A stretch of DNA of 64,000 nucleotides from Ruminococcaceae bacterium YAD3003 (GTDB taxonomy: Bacteria; Bacillota; Clostridia; Saccharofermentanales; Saccharofermentanaceae): the NCBI GenBank assembly GCA_900107185.1, contig FNPA01000003.1, positions 1 through 64,000 on the forward strand, in the 5' to 3' direction. The position numbers and the translations under genes are program-made. This document shows, one piece after another, positions 1,380 through 9,016 of the stretch (positions within the stretch are counted from its first letter, which is position 1; each line of letters starts with the position of its first letter). The notes under the pieces were generated by a model. That model was not told the origin of the DNA, made no database searches, and was given only the letters and a program-made list of their open reading frames with translations.

Positions 1380-1598
1380 ATGATAAGAATCAAGCCAAAC
1401 AGGAAACGCACCATCGAGTTCAAAGTGATGCTGAGTCCCGAGGAAGCAGAACTCTTGAAGAAGAAATCTGAAGAGTCAGGTCTGTCTCGATCAGAAGTTT
1501 TAAGGAGCTTGTTAATCGGCAGGAGCATCACCGGATACCGGGAAGAATCCACTACCCCATCACACTTTGGTCAGACTATAAGAAAGGACGGTAACTAA
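1380..1598 (+). CDS. MobC-like relaxosome accessory protein (ribbon-helix-helix)
   Basis: This 72-residue protein has the pattern of plasmid mobilization accessory proteins: a basic first strand (RNRT-like KRTIEFKVMLSPEEAE) followed by a helix-turn-helix stretch (LLKKKSEESGLSRSEVLRSLLIG) that resembles ribbon-helix-helix DNA-binding domains. Such proteins bind oriT and help the relaxase nick. It has a perfect ribosome site (AAGGAGG, 1366-1372) and is followed after one base by the relaxase gene, so the two are translationally coupled. It is shorter than many MobC proteins (100-130 residues), apparently comprising only the DNA-binding part. Confidence 0.75.
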   Translation: MIRIKPNRKRTIEFKVMLSPEEAELLKKKSEESGLSRSEVLRSLLIGRSITGYREESTTPSHFGQTIRKDGN

Positions 1599-1599
1599 A

Positions 1600-2997
1600 A
1601 TGGCAGTAACTTCCATATGGGCAGTTAAGAATCGTATGGACACCGTTCTCAACTATATCGAGAATCCGGAGAAAACGACACAAAGGCCGGAAGAAGCTCC
1701 CGATGCTAATGCAGCCATGAAACATATCCGTGACGTTCTCGGATATGCCTGCAACGAAGACAAGACCGACAAGATGATGTATGTCACAGGAGTTAATTGC
1801 GATCCCGATACAGCGCTTGAAGAATTCTTAGAGGTAAAGCAGCGCTGGCACAAAGAAGGCGGACGACTTGCCTATCACGGTTATCAGTCTTTCCTTGAAG
1901 GTCCCGGAGAGATCACAGCTGAAGAAGCTCACGAGATTGGAGTTGAACTTGCTAAAGAGTTGTGGGGCGACAGATTCCAAGTGGTAGTCGCTACTCACCT
2001 TAATACCGGTCATTACCACAATCACTTTGTGCTGAATTCCGTATCATTCACGGACGGTTACAAATTCTATCGAATGAATTCAGATTACCGCAGGATGCAG
2101 GAAATCAGTGACCGTTTGTGCAGAGAGCGTGGCTTGAACGTTATCATGAACCCGTCCACAACAAAGGGCAAAACATATGATGAATGGAAAGCCGAACGCG
2201 AAGGAAAGTATACGGTACGAGGCACGATCCGTGAAGATATCGATTATGCGATCCGACTCTCCAGTTCATGGAACGATTTCGCCGAAATGATGCATGAACT
2301 CGGATACGAGTTTAAGTTCTTCGGGAAGAATCATGAGCCGTTAAAATATCCTGGATTAAAACCGCCTGATGCAAAAGGTTATTTCAGATTCAGGAATCTC
2401 GGCCCTGATTATGATACTGATGCCATTTACAGAAGGATTATCAAGAACACATTAACTCCGGGCATTCAGCTTCATCCTCAAAACAAGATCGATATCAAGG
2501 AGTGGGATCCGCCAGCACAGAAATTAGCACCCAAGCCTCATTTGTTCAGATGGTACTGTTTCAAACTATATACGTTTGTCAGCAGTCCGCGAAAACGGAA
2601 AGAACACATCTCTATGTATATCCGCGAAGATATCCGTAAGTTAGATCACTATATCGAGATGTTGGATTTCATCTGCAAACACGAGGTGTACGACAAGCGG
2701 CCAATATCCGAAGTAAAAGCCGGGTATAACAGGCAACTCGAAGCTTTGCAGGAAAAGAAGAACGAAAGGTATTCATGGCTGAGATATCACGAGAAAAACG
2801 GGCATCAATCATTCGTCACCAGCCTCAAACGTGAAATAAAAGAGATCTCGCAAGAGATGGCAGATATCCGGCACAAACTCAAAATATGTGATGACTGCTA
2901 CATATCGACCGATGAGGTGTTGGAACATGCCGAAAGACTTCAACAACAGCTTCAGTCACAACAAAAACAAAGAAGCCGTGGCGGTCGAGCAAGATAA
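1600..2997 (+). CDS. Relaxase (MobA/VirD2-like mobilization nuclease)
   Basis: This 465-residue protein is a relaxase of the Relaxase/MobA-VirD2 family. The N-terminal third carries the metal-binding three-histidine motif in the form THLNTGHYHNHFVLNSV (about residues 132-148), with an upstream HGYQSF element, and the likely catalytic Tyr lies near the N-terminus. The rest is helical and basic with coiled-coil character (KREIKEISQEMADIRHKL) and ends in a Gln/Arg-rich tail. It would nick oriT at 1242-1349 and lead the single strand into a recipient using a helper conjugation machine. No type IV secretion genes are present here, so the element should be mobilizable rather than self-transmissible. 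Confidence 0.92.
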   Translation: MAVTSIWAVKNRMDTVLNYIENPEKTTQRPEEAPDANAAMKHIRDVLGYACNEDKTDKMMYVTGVNCDPDTALEEFLEVKQRWHKEGGRLAYHGYQSFLEGPGEITAEEAHEIGVELAKELWGDRFQVVVATHLNTGHYHNHFVLNSVSFTDGYKFYRMNSDYRRMQEISDRLCRERGLNVIMNPSTTKGKTYDEWKAEREGKYTVRGTIREDIDYAIRLSSSWNDFAEMMHELGYEFKFFGKNHEPLKYPGLKPPDAKGYFRFRNLGPDYDTDAIYRRIIKNTLTPGIQLHPQNKIDIKEWDPPAQKLAPKPHLFRWYCFKLYTFVSSPRKRKEHISMYIREDIRKLDHYIEMLDFICKHEVYDKRPISEVKAGYNRQLEALQEKKNERYSWLRYHEKNGHQSFVTSLKREIKEISQEMADIRHKLKICDDCYISTDEVLEHAERLQQQLQSQQKQRSRGGRAR

Positions 2998-3017
2998 AAC
3001 AAGGAGTTATCGTATAT

Positions 3018-4175
3018 ATGAAAAAACAATTTAAACCGCTTACGGTAGATACCGCAAAGAATCTTGCTGAAAAGGAATTCGAAAGCATCGATCCCCTGAT
3101 CGATCACTTTCTTCCTGGCAAAGGTTTATATCTTCTTTGCGGCAGCGCAAAAATCGGTAAGTCATGGATGGCACTTCAAATTGCCTTGTGTATCAGCACA
3201 GGTATGAACCTTTGGAATTACGACACCAAAAAGAAAGATGTTTTATATCTCTGCCTAGAAGATGGCGAGAAAAGGTTGCAGGACCGCTTGTTCAGTATTG
3301 CTAATGAATGCCCAAAAGAATTAATGTATAGCACGGATGCTGCTCCAATCGGCGGCGGCCTGGAAGAACAACTTGAAGATGCGCTTAAAGATCATCCGGA
3401 TATCGGTCTGTTCATCATAGACACACTTGCTGCTATCCGTTGCGAGCAGAACAAAGCAGATATTAACACCAAGAATCCTTATCAGGGGGATTACAACACT
3501 ATCAACCCTCTTCACAAGTTCTGTGAAGATCATAATGTCACAATCTTGCTTATTCATCACACCCGCAAGATGAGATCGATTGACCCGTTCGATGATATCT
3601 TGGGTACTAATGGTCTGTTCGGCGCATCCGATGGTGCATTCATTATGCGCAAAGAATCATCTGATATGGATGTCAAACTTCATATTCGCAGCCGCGATAT
3701 GGAAGAACGTGTTCTCACGATCAGATTCAACAGCACACTCAGCCACTGGGAACTTGTCAAAGAGAATACACCCATTGAAGATGCATTTCAGGCAGATGAT
3801 GATCTCAGAAAAGCGCTCGATTACCTGAAAGAACACGAAGCCTTTCATGGCACTGCTACGGAGTTCTGTAATCTGATAAAAGCCAGCAAAAAGCCGCAAT
3901 CAATAAGCGGAAAACTCTGGAACAGAAAGAACGAGCTTGCAAAAATGGGATTCCGTTTTGCCAGAGAACACAAGCGTGACGGCACATATCTGAGTTTTGA
4001 AAAAATCGATCAATTCCCTCAGAAGACTCATAACACCGAAGAAGGAGGATGCTATCCGTTTGATCTCATACTTTGTGGCAACATAATCGAACTGAATCAA
4101 CACTGTGGCAATAAAGCCGTCACATCATCACAGTCGTCACATATCATCTCATATTCAGAAAGGAACTTATCATGA
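3018..4175 (+). CDS. RepA-like AAA ATPase (AAA_25, replicative-helicase type)
   Basis: The protein belongs to the RepA/AAA_25 group of hexameric ATPases. The Walker A motif is CGSAKIGKSWMALQIA (about residues 42-57), Walker B is IGLFIIDTLAAI, and a downstream ILLIHHTRK sensor-like motif follows, as in RecA/DnaB-type folds. After the ATPase core comes a winged-helix-like region near residue 260-330. Such genes in plasmids and integrative mobilizable elements support replication of the excised circle. Its last codons overlap the next gene (ATGA, 4172-4175). The C-terminal 45 residues are low in recognizable structure. Confidence 0.85.
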   Translation: MKKQFKPLTVDTAKNLAEKEFESIDPLIDHFLPGKGLYLLCGSAKIGKSWMALQIALCISTGMNLWNYDTKKKDVLYLCLEDGEKRLQDRLFSIANECPKELMYSTDAAPIGGGLEEQLEDALKDHPDIGLFIIDTLAAIRCEQNKADINTKNPYQGDYNTINPLHKFCEDHNVTILLIHHTRKMRSIDPFDDILGTNGLFGASDGAFIMRKESSDMDVKLHIRSRDMEERVLTIRFNSTLSHWELVKENTPIEDAFQADDDLRKALDYLKEHEAFHGTATEFCNLIKASKKPQSISGKLWNRKNELAKMGFRFAREHKRDGTYLSFEKIDQFPQKTHNTEEGGCYPFDLILCGNIIELNQHCGNKAVTSSQSSHIISYSERNLS

Positions 4176-4510
4176 AAGACAAAGATAACATCAACATCAT
4201 TATTGACCAGCAGCTCACACCTGTAGTAAAAAGCGAGAACTGTACAGCTTACCTGGCTGAAGTATTGAAGTCTGCTCCAGTTAAAGAAACCACCAAACAT
4301 AACGAGACCAAAGAAGTCGACCTCAACCAGCTAAAAGAGAAAAAACTCTTGAGCGTTACAGAGGCATCAAAGCTTTTCGGAATAGGAATGAACCGAATCA
4401 GAGAGCTTACTAATGACAAAGAATGTCCCTTTGTCATCTGGATTGGATCTCACAGAAGGATCAAGAGAGAAGAATTCGAGATATTCCTCAAAGGGCGTCA
4501 GTCCGCCTGA
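4172..4510 (+). CDS. Excisionase-like helix-turn-helix protein
   Basis: This 112-residue protein has a MerR/Xis-type winged helix in its second half: LLSVTEASKLFGIGMNRIRELTND followed by the wing PFVIWIGSHRRIKREEFEIFL, as in Tn916 Xis and similar excisionases (HTH_17). The first 60 residues are hydrophilic and probably disordered. It is translationally coupled to the ATPase gene. In integrative elements this gene is normally followed by a tyrosine integrase; here 127 bases later comes the tRNA-Thr gene, so the integrase is absent from its usual place. It could instead act as a regulator of the module. Confidence 0.8.
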   Translation: MKDKDNINIIIDQQLTPVVKSENCTAYLAEVLKSAPVKETTKHNETKEVDLNQLKEKKLLSVTEASKLFGIGMNRIRELTNDKECPFVIWIGSHRRIKREEFEIFLKGRQSA

Positions 4511-4636: not shown

Positions 4637-4712
4637 TGGAGCCATTTGTGGGACTCGAACCCACGACCTGCTGATTACAAATCAGCTGCTCTACCAACTG
4701 AGCTAAGATGGC
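4637..4712 (-). tRNA. tRNA-Thr (anticodon UGU)
   Basis: A 76-base cloverleaf on the minus strand includes an encoded CCA end (4637-4639). The D-loop contains AGTTGGTAGAGC, the anticodon stem-loop is GCTGA/TTTGTAA/TCAGC with anticodon TGT, and the T arm is GTGGG/TTCGAGT/CCCAC. The acceptor stem pairs GCCATCT with AAATGGC and has one mismatch (C6 against A67). The 3' end abuts the mobilizable element, the usual integration spot for tyrosine recombinases. Confidence 0.95.
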
Positions 4713-4865: not shown

Positions 4866-5837
4866 ATGGCAATTATCACTATCTCTAGACAGAACGGAAG
4901 TCTGGGCGATGAGATTGCCGATGCACTCGCATCCAAACTAGGAACAGTTGTCATCTCCCGTAAATACGCATTAGAAAATTTCTTTGGAGAGATCAATCCC
5001 GGCACACTCGACAGGTTAAATGAGAGCGCCAAATTTTTTGAGACTACGCTTCCCGGCAGTAAGCGTACTTATGCAGATATTCTTGTCGAGAAGATAAGAA
5101 CTCTCGTTTCAGCATCCAAAGATAGGGATTTAATAATTCTCGGAATGGGCGGAAGCGTTCTGCTCGACAGTTTCCCTGGAGCTCTTCATATCAGAGTAAC
5201 CGCCAGTGAGACAACCCGTCTTAACACTATTGCCCGTAAATACCGCATCACTACCGATGAAGCTGCTGAGGTCCTTAATATTGCCGACCGCAAACACAAG
5301 AAGTTCGTCAGAACTGTTTACGGCAAAGATATTACTTCACCTGAACAGTTCGACCTTATTCTCAACACCGACAGATTAAGCGTCGACGAGTGTGTTGATG
5401 CCATATGTGAGCTGGCCAGGAAGCATGACATCAGAGTTAAGCTGTCTGAATCTAACATTGATAAAGGAACTTTCGATCATCAGACTCGCGCAACCAAATT
5501 CAAAAATGAGACTGAAGAAGAATTTGCAAGAATTCTCAATATGTATAACATTGAATGGCTATACGAACCCAAGACATTCCCTGTCGAATGGGATGCCGAA
5601 GGAAACGTAACGATGGCTATCTCCCCTGATTTCTTTCTTCCGAAGTTCAATCTTTATCTTGAACTCACAACAATGGATCAGAGATACGTAACCAAGAAGA
5701 ATAAGAAAATGCGTCTTGTACAGGAACTCTATCCGGGCACTAATATCCGCATAGTTTATAAGAAAGATTTCAACGAATTGGTTGACCGTCTGAAATTGTT
5801 TGGCGGCCTCAACGACAATACCCGGGAGGATAACTAA
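4866..5837 (+). CDS. Cytidylate kinase-like protein fused to a PD-(D/E)XK nuclease-like domain
   Basis: Residues 1 to about 195 resemble the cytidylate-kinase-like family: a P-loop variant at the very start (ITISRQNGSLGDEIADALA), an IILGMGGSVLL strand, and an ADRKHKKFVRTVYG helix. Residues about 215-323 look like a different fold, a PD-(D/E)XK nuclease or transfer-type domain: YEPKTFP, then SPDFFLPKFNLYLELTT, then a Lys-rich helix and TNIRIVYKKDF. I chose ATG 4866 because the P-loop protein family starts immediately with such a strand and a GGGGGT ribosome site precedes it. It abuts the next gene with no gap. The P-loop lacks the usual second Gly-rich context, so kinase activity is uncertain. 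Confidence 0.75.
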   Translation: MAIITISRQNGSLGDEIADALASKLGTVVISRKYALENFFGEINPGTLDRLNESAKFFETTLPGSKRTYADILVEKIRTLVSASKDRDLIILGMGGSVLLDSFPGALHIRVTASETTRLNTIARKYRITTDEAAEVLNIADRKHKKFVRTVYGKDITSPEQFDLILNTDRLSVDECVDAICELARKHDIRVKLSESNIDKGTFDHQTRATKFKNETEEEFARILNMYNIEWLYEPKTFPVEWDAEGNVTMAISPDFFLPKFNLYLELTTMDQRYVTKKNKKMRLVQELYPGTNIRIVYKKDFNELVDRLKLFGGLNDNTREDN

Positions 5838-6383
5838 GTGTCAAATCTTGAAGAGACTCTGAAGACCGAACGTGTCGTTTACAGTGAAGAAACCATCAAG
5901 GCCAGAGTTGCAGAACTCGGTAAACAGATAACCGAAGATTACGCCGGAAAAGAACTGGTAGTAATCGGTGTTATCAAGGGGTCCCTTTATTTCTTATCTG
6001 ATCTTACCAGAGCCATCGACCTTCCTGTAAAGGTCGATATGATCGGCTTTTCAAACATTCCCGATACAACATCAAAAACTGGTATCGTTCGTATAACAAA
6101 GGATATCGATATTGATATTACAGATAAGCATGTTCTTGTAGTTGAGGATGTAATCAGAACAGGTCTTACAACTGCTTATATAATTCAGAATCTCGAGATG
6201 AAGAAGCCGGCGGATATCACGCTTTGTTCCATGCTTCTTAATCCCGACAGACTTCTCATGACGATCCCCGTTAAATACTTCGGATTTGAGATCAACGACC
6301 AGTGGCTCGCAGGATACGGTCTCGACCATGATGAGATTGGCCGTAACCTTCCATATATCGCTCAGATTCCCAAGCGAAAATAA
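5838..6383 (+). CDS. hpt: Hypoxanthine/guanine phosphoribosyltransferase family protein, diverged active site
   Basis: The 181-residue protein has the HPRT layout: a KGS pyrophosphate loop (VIGVIKGSLYFLSDL, residues 43-55), a PRPP-binding motif VLVVEDVIRTGLTT (99-112), and a C-terminal GYGLDHDEIGRNLPYI motif. Family members convert hypoxanthine or guanine with PRPP to IMP or GMP. The family consensus of the PRPP motif is E-D-I-I-D-T-G; here the second acidic residue, the presumed general base, is Arg107. The usual LDKP is also LNPD. It starts with GTG directly after the stop of the previous gene (ribosome site GGGAGGA), so the two are co-translated. It may be a non-catalytic or altered-specificity paralog. 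Confidence 0.8.
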   Translation: MSNLEETLKTERVVYSEETIKARVAELGKQITEDYAGKELVVIGVIKGSLYFLSDLTRAIDLPVKVDMIGFSNIPDTTSKTGIVRITKDIDIDITDKHVLVVEDVIRTGLTTAYIIQNLEMKKPADITLCSMLLNPDRLLMTIPVKYFGFEINDQWLAGYGLDHDEIGRNLPYIAQIPKRK

Positions 6384-6404
6384 TTATTTTAGATTATCCC
6401 AAAG

Positions 6405-6438
6405 AAAAATCCCGATGACCTGAATCACCGGGATTTTC
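6405..6438. terminator. Bidirectional terminator between hpt and the noncoding RNA
   Basis: AAAATCCCG (6406-6414) pairs with CGGGATTTT (6429-6437). On the minus strand it is followed by TTTTTCTTT, a better T-run than on the plus strand, so it fits the end of a minus-strand transcript from the 6.4-7.2 kb region as well as the end of hpt. Confidence 0.8.
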
Positions 6439-7175
6439 AATTTGCTCCAACGAACCAAATTAGATTCACTGTCAAAAGATTACGCATTCACGCCTATCTT
6501 CCTATCGTACTCCCCTCCTACCAAAAGGCCCATTCTAAACACTACCCGAGCTTTATGTGATATCGTCACAACTAATCGATCTGCTGCAACTCTTCATCAC
6601 ACCGTGCAACTCATGACTCCATTCACCGAACATAACGCTATTCGATTCAGGTCTGCTCGTGATCTTCGCCTCTCGACTCTGATACTCACAGTTCGAAAGC
6701 CATATCGGCTACTCGGTTTGCACGAACCGGTGTAACATCGGCTGCGGCTTCGGTTCTCTCCTGTCGATGGTGACATCTCACCTACTCGCGGTTCCGAATA
6801 CCGAATCAACTAATTGTTACAACCTGTGGCTTGCATGTCTGGGACACCTTCAACCACTCGCTCGTCACTCCCTTAGCTATCTAATCCCTGGCTTCGTATC
6901 AACCTTTGATTGTTGTCTCCGGCTTCGTCTCTTCGGCTTCGCCATAAGCTTTTAACCACTCTGGTTCTACCCTGCGCCTGCTCGACTATTGCTTCGGGCG
7001 GCCTTCCTCGGATTGGAAGTTATCGCTTCCGTATTCCTTGGAGCTACCCTAATGATAAAGGGGGACCATTCACTTATCAATATCGCAGTTAATACCAAAT
7101 GAAAATCATTTGATTGTGCAGTATGCACAATACTTTGCATATCAAAATGTTATTGTTTTATGAACAATACCTCAA
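6405..7175 (-). ncRNA. Candidate large structured noncoding RNA
   Basis: About 750 bases between hpt and the next gene contain no ORF with a ribosome site or recognizable protein, yet they are not AT-rich spacer: the minus strand is G/A-rich and packed with hairpins. Clear stems are ATTGTGC/GCACAAT (7113-7131), CAAATGA/TCATTTG (7096-7112), TATTGTT/AACAATA (7151-7169), GGAAG/CTTCC (7015-7030), and TGTGA/TCACA (6556-6570). The heptamer CGAAGCC occurs four times (minus strand). A terminator at 6405-6438 has its better T-run on the minus strand. Size, ornate pairing and host type fit giant RNAs such as ROOL or GOLLD, but I cannot match it to either from memory. No promoter with both boxes is clear. 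Exact ends are unknown. Confidence 0.6.
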
Positions 7176-7210
7176 AAGTGCTTATTTATATGTTATTTGG
7201 GTTACATTCG

Positions 7211-7708
7211 TCAGACCAGGTCTGAAATTGAAGTAATACCGGCTTTGGCAAGAAGACTGATGACCAGCATAATGATTCCGGCCATAAGAACACCAAGAAC
7301 TACAGCCCTAGTGGTCTTCTTAAAATCAAAGTCGAGCATAGATGCTGCAAGAGTACCTGTCCATGCACCTGTTCCGGGGAGCGGGATGCCGACAAAGAGC
7401 ATCAGTGCAATAAATGCACCGTGCTTCTTTGAGTTAGCGGTAAGCTTTTTGCCTGCCTTCTCACCCTTCTGGAGGATCCATTTGAAAATGCCGCTGCCAT
7501 GCTTGAGCTTGCTGCCCCAGATAAGGACTCTTCTGGCGAACAGATAAATAATAGGAACGGGAATCATATTACCCACAATACAAACAGCGAGAGTAATATA
7601 TTCATTCAGACCGAAATATGTAACTCCGATCGGGACAGCTCCACGAAGCTCAATGATCGGAACCATAGAAATAAAAAACACCAATATATATTTAACGATC
7701 GTAGGCAT
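7211..7708 (-). CDS. Small multidrug export family membrane protein (COG2426)
   Basis: This 165-residue membrane protein resembles the Sm_multidrug_ex family: an opening MPTIVKYILVFFISMVPIIELRGAVPIGV with the conserved ELRGAIP-like motif, then GNMIPVPIIYLFARR, a loop with FALMLFVGIPLPGTGAWTG (residues about 112-128, the re-entrant helix), and a C-terminal helix. Four to five membrane segments are visible. The family name refers to early annotations; substrate is unknown. I chose the ATG at 7706-7708 because GGAGG lies 6 bases upstream. The gene has no immediate operon partner; the next minus-strand gene upstream ends at 7773. Confidence 0.85.
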   Translation of the reverse strand: MPTIVKYILVFFISMVPIIELRGAVPIGVTYFGLNEYITLAVCIVGNMIPVPIIYLFARRVLIWGSKLKHGSGIFKWILQKGEKAGKKLTANSKKHGAFIALMLFVGIPLPGTGAWTGTLAASMLDFDFKKTTRAVVLGVLMAGIIMLVISLLAKAGITSISDLV

Positions 7709-7772
7709 AGTTATCCTCCATACAAGCACCCATTATAACAAACGATCGCTAATCTATGTACTGAAATTAATA

Positions 7773-8144
7773 TCAGATCACCTTATCGGAATTAAGATAG
7801 GAACGCATCTCATCTCTCATGTGATACATCTTCTGGACGCTGTTCTCCAAAAAGTAGTAATGCATGACATATCCGATCGTAAGACCGAAGAATATGGCAA
7901 CCAGCAGAACACCTGCAACTAAAAACGAAGATGGAAGCATGAACAGACAGAAGATCTCGAAGAGAAGGAAGAACGCAAAAGACAGCGTGACCATAAGATG
8001 GATTAATCTCTCGTGCTGGAAAAATTCGATCTTCTTTTCAAATTCAGAGAGAACTTCTTTTGTCTTTGAGTCCGGAGAACTCTTCATTTCTTCATCGATG
8101 TATTTCTGAACGGCATTCATAGTCTGCAAAACATATTCTTTCAT
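7773..8144 (-). CDS. Hypothetical two-helix membrane protein
   Basis: This 123-residue protein has a hydrophilic, acidic first half with helical character (MKEYVLQTMNAVQKYIDEEMKSS) and two adjacent hydrophobic segments near residues 50-95 (LMVTLSFAFFLLFEIFCLFM and FLVAGVLLVAIFFGLTIGYV), then a short charged tail. No family is recognised. Its start overlaps the stop of the radical SAM gene by four bases (ATGA), so it belongs to the dinB operon and is translated by coupling. Confidence 0.7.
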   Translation of the reverse strand: MKEYVLQTMNAVQKYIDEEMKSSPDSKTKEVLSEFEKKIEFFQHERLIHLMVTLSFAFFLLFEIFCLFMLPSSFLVAGVLLVAIFFGLTIGYVMHYYFLENSVQKMYHMRDEMRSYLNSDKVI

Positions 8145-9016
8145 AAGCCGAACCTCCGGTTGATGTAGTTAACGACCTGCCTCTTATTCTTCGTCCACAG
8201 CGGAGCGATAAGAATCTTCTTTGGACCATCCCCCGTGAACCTGTGAACCACTGCGTTATCAGGCAGAATCGCAATTGCTGCTTCTACAATATCAAAATAC
8301 TCTTCCATCTCAAGTATCGCAATTTTATTATCTTCCCAAAGTTTTTCCAGAGGAGTATTGCAAAGCACATAAAGACATGTGAATTTATATCCGTCACTGC
8401 CTGCATCAACTGCAGTCTTTACGGACTCCATCATCATATCTTTTGTCTCTCCTGGAAGACCGAAGATAATGTGAGTAATAACATTCGCACCGATCGATTT
8501 GAGTTTCTTTACCGCTTCAATGTATTCAATTGTTTCATAACAGCGGTTAATTAACTTAGCAGTTTCATCATTTGAAGTCTGTAATCCGAGCTCAACATAT
8601 AATGGCATTTTCTCTGCCTGACGCTTCAGAACATCCAGAATATCACCGCCGAGACAATCTGGTCTGGTAGCCACGGAAACTGCTTCTATTCCTTCACATA
8701 ATGATGCTTCATCCATAGCTTTTTTGAGATAAGAAGGAGAACAATATGTGCTCGTAAAACTTTGGAAATATGCTATGTATCCGGCATCAGTTCCGGCCTT
8801 TTTCTTCACCTGGGCAATTGCTTCTTTTATCTGATCTGGAACAGATGTATTTCCGCAATACGCAGCGAATTCTCCTGACCCTCCTTCGGAACAGAAAATG
8901 CATCCTCCGACACCCTTGCTGCCGTCCCTGTTGGGACACGTAACATCCAAAGAAATAGATGCCTTATACATCTTATGTCCGAACACATCGCGAAAGTGTT
9001 TATTGGCAGTGATCAC
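8141..9016 (-). CDS. Radical SAM protein, TIGR01212/YhcC family
   Basis: The 291-residue protein matches the YhcC/TIGR01212 radical SAM family: the cluster motif CPNRDGSKGVGGCIFCSEGG (three Cys, residues about 26-45) with the family's longer spacing, then SFTSTYCSP, VATRPDCL, VELGLQTSND and HIIFGLPGETKDMM. These proteins bind a 4Fe-4S cluster and S-adenosylmethionine; the substrate is not firmly known. Length fits the family (about 300). It is coupled to dinB upstream and to a small membrane protein downstream by four-base overlaps. Confidence 0.92.
   Translation of the reverse strand: MITANKHFRDVFGHKMYKASISLDVTCPNRDGSKGVGGCIFCSEGGSGEFAAYCGNTSVPDQIKEAIAQVKKKAGTDAGYIAYFQSFTSTYCSPSYLKKAMDEASLCEGIEAVSVATRPDCLGGDILDVLKRQAEKMPLYVELGLQTSNDETAKLINRCYETIEYIEAVKKLKSIGANVITHIIFGLPGETKDMMMESVKTAVDAGSDGYKFTCLYVLCNTPLEKLWEDNKIAILEMEEYFDIVEAAIAILPDNAVVHRFTGDGPKKILIAPLWTKNKRQVVNYINRRFGL

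Follow-up and report, generated by a model that had tools for sequence, protein, structure and literature searches.

Evidence for a large structured noncoding RNA family, absent from Rfam, in Saccharofermentans and its relatives

The window is the whole stretch of DNA that was analysed, 64,000 nucleotides from Ruminococcaceae bacterium YAD3003. The interval 6384–7211 is the spacer between an hpt-like phosphoribosyltransferase gene on the plus strand (5838–6383; Pfam PF00156) and a COG2426-type membrane protein gene on the minus strand (7211–7729; PF06695). Further upstream on the minus strand are the genes of a small, apparently membrane protein of 123 aa (7773–8144; no Pfam family at the cut-off) and a radical SAM protein (8141–9016). 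According to the original prediction, the minus strand of this spacer encodes a large structured noncoding RNA. Homologs, covariation and end signals now lend this strong support; the predicted transcript, whose ends are inferred, spans 6404–7045 on the minus strand (about 640 nt). The prediction also described the spacer correctly as lacking a recognisable open reading frame (ORF) or product, as raised in G+C, and as purine-rich on the minus strand. The interval in the window holds only mechanical ORFs of 60–97 aa (listed from 60 aa upward), none of them convincing. The G+C content was 0.50 at 6501–7000 and 0.41–0.43 in the neighbouring 500-base windows on either side, and the plus strand had a GC skew of −0.29 and an AT skew of −0.19, indicating a purine-rich minus strand. 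Folding was more stable than that of dinucleotide shuffles, with z values of −5.8 on the minus strand and −3.7 on the plus strand (20 shuffles each). The RNA gene was single-copy in its own genome.

When 59 genomes, the own genome included, were searched with blastn, 31 matched; within the genus, the RNA was found in 30 of 35 genomes, again including its own. The remaining blastn match, 28 nt long and at chance level (E 0.0035), came from another genus of the order; it was rejected as unsupported, the order-wide model search described below having matched the genus only. The relatives found via hpt were Saccharofermentans and uncultured Clostridia, Ruminococcaceae and Clostridiales bacteria, many of them from the rumen or gut. 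Iterated nhmmer found the RNA in 62 of 87 loci, among them all 30 blastn loci of the genus and 32 of the 34 hpt loci at 75% protein identity or above, some of the latter lying on the same contigs as blastn loci. One of the loci matched, L042, belongs to Ruminococcaceae bacterium AB4001, which is not tagged as a metagenome-assembled genome and may be in culture. A covariance model built on a 135-nt core detected the RNA in 78 of the 85 genomes that represent the genus (Saccharofermentans and relatives); the 103 other genomes of the order gave no match. In a draw from the class, 8 of 391 genomes matched, all of the same genus, while three further members of the genus gave no match; in a draw from the phylum, the own genome was the sole match among 398. 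The order, class and phylum searches used stricter filters, with which some weak matches are lost. Within the family, 30 genomes from its other genera gave a single match, at chance level (E 0.5), when laxer filters were used. Within the searches made, the new RNA family is apparently restricted to one genus.

Seven genomes of the genus lacked the RNA, both by the model and by a 23-nt pattern at up to three mismatches, and the radical SAM locus was recovered in three of them (G124, G033 and G123). In G124, which is 98% complete, the COG2426 gene is followed by a tRNA-Thr gene and the RNA is absent (locus L195 on contig C39), as if the segment between the two genes had been deleted or moved. 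Loss of the RNA is thus possible in at least one lineage. The tRNA-Thr of G124 (TGT) is of the same kind as the tRNA beyond hpt in the window. In G033 the contig stops before the expected RNA site, and in G123 there was no RNA in the stretch examined, which may end short of the site. At L054, whose hpt product is 79% identical, other genes lie downstream of hpt and no RNA match was found within 10.5 kb. In L031, from a red deer metagenome-assembled genome, a group II intron at 5552–6020 lies directly downstream of hpt, in the usual position of the RNA; because the contig ends soon after the intron, loss and insertion look the same here. The G117 bin has two RNA copies (L156 and L157) in like neighbourhoods, which may come from two strains since the contamination of this bin is 7%.

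Gene order was surveyed in 79 loci, some of them shortened by contig ends. The hpt-like gene was 3ʹ of the RNA and convergent with it in 45 loci, whereas the genes for the 123-aa protein (60 loci), the radical SAM protein (56), the COG2426-type protein (43) and dinB (25), where found, were always 5ʹ on the same strand as the RNA. In more distant species the immediate neighbours differ on both sides of the RNA, and include genes for undecaprenyl-phosphate-translocase-like, divergent MscS-type, thioesterase, NlpC/P60 and RDD proteins, each assigned by Pfam on one example. The MscS-type gene (PF00924 on one example) is divergent from the RNA and starts less than 80 nt from the conserved region in 13 distant relatives (L019, L020, L024, L025, L028, L145, L151, L153, L161, L162, L169, L175 and L181); because of this short distance, it may share the promoter region of the RNA. 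The identity of the RNA between genomes correlated with that of the radical SAM protein (r = 0.80, n = 21, 0 of 999 permutations). Since RNA identity tracks radical SAM identity and gene order is kept, we conclude that the RNA is vertically inherited as an independent gene. A role as cis-regulator of one downstream gene was rejected because there is no consistent downstream gene, the 3ʹ neighbour being either the convergent hpt or a gene that varies between clades. No obligate protein partner was found; G124 retains the genes for the 123-aa and COG2426-type proteins without the RNA.

The 111 loci with matches included 105 near full length, from which 74 distinct sequences were aligned; after five near-duplicates were dropped, 69 sequences at less than 96% identity were retained, with a lowest pairwise identity of 44%. 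No ORF was common to most of these homologs. The longest sense ORF had a median of 53 codons, compared to 54 in shuffles, and the most shared sense stop column occurred in 21 of 69. Antisense ORFs were longer (median 74 codons), with the most shared stop in 25 of 69, so that no ORF end on either strand was common to more than 25 homologs. The single-sequence minimum free energy was lower on the minus than on the plus strand in all 69 sequences, and RNAalifold gave −215.6 kcal/mol on the minus strand versus −157.9 kcal/mol on the plus strand.

Covariation was assessed with self-written, R-scape-like code (not R-scape itself), using an APC-corrected G statistic and null alignments evolved on the tree, with substitutions placed either uniformly or so as to preserve site rates. 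An earlier test with 45 sequences had given only one significant pair among all pairs. With 69 sequences, the all-pairs test returned three significant pairs on the longer alignment and two on the alignment of the transcript only (629 columns); when testing was restricted to the consensus structure, 11 of 138 and 9 of 137 pairs, respectively, were significant. At the level of whole helices, both nulls gave E ≤ 0.02 for 7 of the 212 candidates, which points to covariation beyond what phylogeny explains; six of the seven are part of the consensus fold, and the seventh is an overlapping alternative. The significant helices contained 355 G-U versus 13 A-C combinations, a count that is biased because the helices were selected with G-U allowed. 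No helix passed this test in the 5ʹ third inside the closing stem.

The closing stem, P1, joins nucleotides about 600 apart, its 5ʹ strand GCUCCAA (7038–7044) pairing with UUGGAGC (6444–6450); it was fully paired in 69 of 69 homologs with 12 sequence combinations (helix E 0.00/0.01). Inside it lies an inner closing stem, whose 5ʹ strands GAAU and CGGA (7028–7036) pair with 6452–6455 and 6456–6459, respectively (3ʹ strands 6452–6459). The GAAU/GUUC part is invariant in all 69; the CGGA/UUUG part covaries, with three double changes at one pair, and is incompletely paired in 12 of 69. A hairpin at 6826–6857 had the two highest helix scores: its outer helix (6857–6852/6831–6826) was paired in all 69 sequences with 12 combinations, and its inner helix (6847–6844/6838–6835) was fully paired in 63. 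Covariation was also seen in the outer pairs of the hairpin GGUGA-GAUG-UCACC at 6769–6782. In a long-range helix, UUACACCG (6728–6735) pairs with CGGUGUGA (6597–6604; helix E 0.00/0.01). A block, CGGUUCGUGCAAACCGAGUAGCC (6708–6730), was near-invariant in the 45-sequence alignment and is changed in some more distant species. All of these elements are on the minus strand.

Ahead of the RNA on the minus strand is a predicted sigma-70-type promoter, TTGATA-17-TATCAT (7080–7052), with the −35 element at 7075–7080 and the −10 element at 7052–7057, which together match 10 of 12 consensus positions. Since shuffles yield 1.7 such sites per same 1-kb stretch, a single promoter-like site in the window is not evidence alone. 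Across the aligned homologs, TTG of the −35 element and positions 1, 2 and 6 of the −10 element (TA...T) were kept in 69 of 69, with a spacing of 17 bp in 51 and 16 bp in 18, and a promoter scan near the closing stem reached a score of at least 9/12 in 45 of 69 homologs versus 3.7% of shuffled upstream stretches. This promoter puts the predicted start at about 7045, immediately 5ʹ of P1, and not near 7170 as originally proposed. At the other end, sequence and fold both point to an intrinsic terminator hairpin with a U run at 6407–6436 on the minus strand, directly after the 3ʹ strand of P1; the prediction had already noted a hairpin at 6405–6438 with the longer T run on the minus strand, and this is present. 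A crude scan located a hairpin and T run behind P1 in 59 of the 69 homologs; this is an undercount, because the window copy is among the 10 misses though its hairpin is plain in sequence and fold. A separate terminator scan did not list the hairpin at 6407–6436 either. The predicted ends, 7045 and 6404, give a length nearer 640 nt than the 750 bases initially suggested. Judged by these signals, the large structured noncoding RNA would have a promoter and a terminator of its own.

Three perfect stems that had been counted as part of the RNA (7096–7112, 7113–7131 and 7151–7169) exist as described and lie in the upstream DNA, outside the predicted transcript, because the conserved promoter sits at 7080–7052. 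One is the palindrome TTGTGCA-N3-TGCACAA (7114–7130), which is kept in near clades and whose right half, TGCACAA, is conserved more broadly than the left; adjacent to it is a second palindrome, CAAATGA-N3-TCATTTG (7096–7112), which is conserved only in near clades. In other clades, TTGTGC/GCACAA arms are spaced farther apart than in the window. The palindrome at 7114–7130 is possibly an operator or a remnant of the terminator of the upstream gene. A genome scan for it gave eight sites at up to two mismatches versus two in the reversed control, and the idea of a regulon motif was rejected because the two best other sites read as terminator hairpins.

We compared the RNA with known families using Rfam 15. 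At the gathering level, no family was found in the window except a tRNA at 4640–4712, and the RNA matched none at 17 further loci; tRNAs and the group II intron of L031 were detected in that search. When matches with E up to 10 were admitted for the window stretch and 13 trimmed homologs, no plausible family appeared. The sub-threshold matches were to scattered, unrelated small families, the lowest E value (0.06) belonging to a human lncRNA segment with 19 bits against a cut-off of 80. Thus none of the families named beforehand as candidates (ROOL, GOLLD, OLE, HEARO and introns) was matched, and the group II intron domain V and D1–D4 models gave no match in the new RNA. RNase P RNA (RF00010), which is likewise large, conserved, single-copy and structured, was rejected as an identity, as the genome has an ordinary copy elsewhere (C7:104931–105274, 255 bits). 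To our knowledge, the list of bacterial noncoding RNAs that exceed 500 nt and have complex folds is very short.

Among these, OLE RNA (RF01071) is described as an RNA of about 600 nt from Bacillota with a complex fold, which is dispensable. Its gene is reported to lie often beside a membrane-protein gene, and the RNA to be a membrane-associated RNP aiding cells under stress (PMC11332333). The new RNA shares with OLE its size, hosts, complex fold, nearby membrane-protein genes and probable dispensability. It differs in that neither the window stretch nor 13 homologs matched the OLE model when E values up to 10 were allowed, in that the six window neighbours are without a CNNM (OapA-like) domain in Pfam, and in having been found in one genus only. 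The OLE model also matched 0 of 85 genomes, a weak result since control genomes were silent too. For ROOL, a second report describes a 659-nt example from the cow rumen, hosts among gut and rumen bacteria, a function that is unknown, and occurrence in phages and prophages, often near tRNA islands; GOLLD is often longer than 800 nt and phage- or prophage-borne, and both are reported as RNA-only cages (PMC12286853). The likeness in size and look that had been noted is fair: the new RNA resembles ROOL in size and in gut and rumen hosts, and GOLLD in being large and ornate. Membership in either family was not borne out: even with E values up to 10 admitted, neither was matched in the window or the 13 trimmed homologs, and the new RNA had no match in phage records or, for an exact 22-mer, in viral contigs. 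Unlike ROOL, the new RNA sits in the chromosome amid genes whose order is conserved, is present in 78 of the genus's 85 genomes and was absent from the phage records, and Rfam gives no match; one tRNA-Thr, the only tRNA in the window, lies 1.7 kb past its 3ʹ end. Unlike GOLLD, it is about 640 nt long and without a match to the GOLLD model in the window, the 17 further loci, or the 13 homologs at E up to 10. In size the RNA is comparable to OLE and ROOL, and we claim relatedness to neither. The same source states that three large bacterial RNAs with solved structures form unprecedented RNA homo-oligomers (PMC12286853). Covariation gave no significant sign of symmetric same-loop intermolecular pairing (kissing loops), the best E value being 0.14, a result that leaves room for other intermolecular contacts.

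That the locus holds a real structured noncoding RNA gene of a family absent from Rfam is highly probable. The best explanation overall, to which we give a probability of about 0.6, is that a new family of large structured noncoding RNA, about 640 nt long, is encoded here by a stand-alone gene. Because the RNA is noncoding, its fold is conserved and no catalogued family matches, it has the appearance of a large structural RNA of a new kind; large structured bacterial noncoding RNAs as such are already known, and this family is in neither Rfam nor the literature found. A structured 3ʹ untranslated region of the upstream membrane-protein/radical SAM operon, produced by read-through or processing and acting on that mRNA or as a 3ʹ-UTR-derived RNA, would agree with the position of the RNA 3ʹ of same-strand genes wherever these are found (123-aa gene 60/79 loci, radical SAM gene 56/79) and with the distance of only about 165 nt from the COG2426 stop to the predicted RNA start in the window. 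We regard it as unlikely, since the gene just upstream varies (COG2426-type, 123-aa, undecaprenyl-phosphate-translocase-like or divergent MscS-type), yet the −35/−10 pattern is kept in 69 of 69, and in 13 loci the conserved region has an opposite-strand MscS-type gene starting no more than 80 nt away. Much the same low probability applies to a switching RNA or ribozyme, in which the strand 6737–6728 would pair alternately with 6821–6815 and 6604–6597. UGUAACA at 6815–6821 (minus strand) is the alternative partner of 6731–6737; the helix test was passed by this pairing (E 0.00/0.02) and by the long-range helix that it overlaps (E 0.00/0.01), and one clade has changed the middle strand and both partners together. 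However, the alternative helix shows only two double-change events, one at each of two pairs, with 13 pair-breaking branch events over seven pairs, in comparison with four double changes and nine breaks over eight pairs for the consensus helix.

A very diverged member of ROOL, GOLLD, OLE, HEARO or raiA would account for the similar size, gut and rumen hosts and complex fold, and also for the nearby membrane-protein gene, as the OLE gene is reported often to adjoin one (PMC11332333). We consider this very unlikely, given the lack of a gathering-level match in the window and 17 further RNA-bearing loci, of any match to these families, with E values up to 10 allowed, in either the window stretch or the 13 trimmed homologs, of the phage-record match expected of ROOL and GOLLD, and of a CNNM (OapA-like) domain among the window neighbours. 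The relic of a group II intron, of another mobile element or of a decayed protein gene is largely refuted and has the lowest probability of all. It is suggested by L031, where a group II intron lies immediately downstream of hpt, but the Rfam intron models that match L031 miss the RNA in the window and the tested homologs, covariation shows selection on structure, and no ORF is widely common among the 69 homologs, which speaks against the decayed protein-coding gene that the original prediction had weighed. A mobile element was also rejected because the RNA is single-copy and syntenic, because phage and plasmid records contained nothing matching the window copy, and because viral contigs contained nothing matching an exact 22-mer of it.

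As the product of a stand-alone gene, the RNA would be transcribed as its own unit from the conserved promoter, may fold into a compact multi-domain particle closed by P1, and, by analogy with OLE, ROOL and GOLLD, could serve a structural function in trans, either by itself or together with proteins. Its role would be dispensable and probably stress- or condition-related, as is reported for OLE RNA. This scaffold or RNP mechanism is a tentative proposal by analogy, in which our confidence is rather low. Somewhat more speculative still is an undescribed class of ornate RNA like OLE, ROOL and GOLLD, a self-assembling RNA or RNA–protein particle inherited with the chromosome and not with phages, which may also swap the two overlapping pairings and so be switchable or domain-swapping. 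The RNA would add a further unrelated class of large RNA that is chromosomal, about 640 nt long, represented by 69 non-redundant diverse sequences and provided with a precise predicted promoter, making it directly testable. The finding suggests that uncultured gut bacteria have genus-restricted large RNAs absent from Rfam.

Beyond hpt, the region 1380–4510 of the window is part or whole of a mobilizable element adjoining the tRNA-Thr gene (4637–4712). It encodes NikA-like and MobA-type relaxase proteins, an AAA protein and a Tn916-Xis-like excisionase, and a similar excisionase-like ORF lies on the corresponding side in five loci (L139, L141, L146, L176 and L185).
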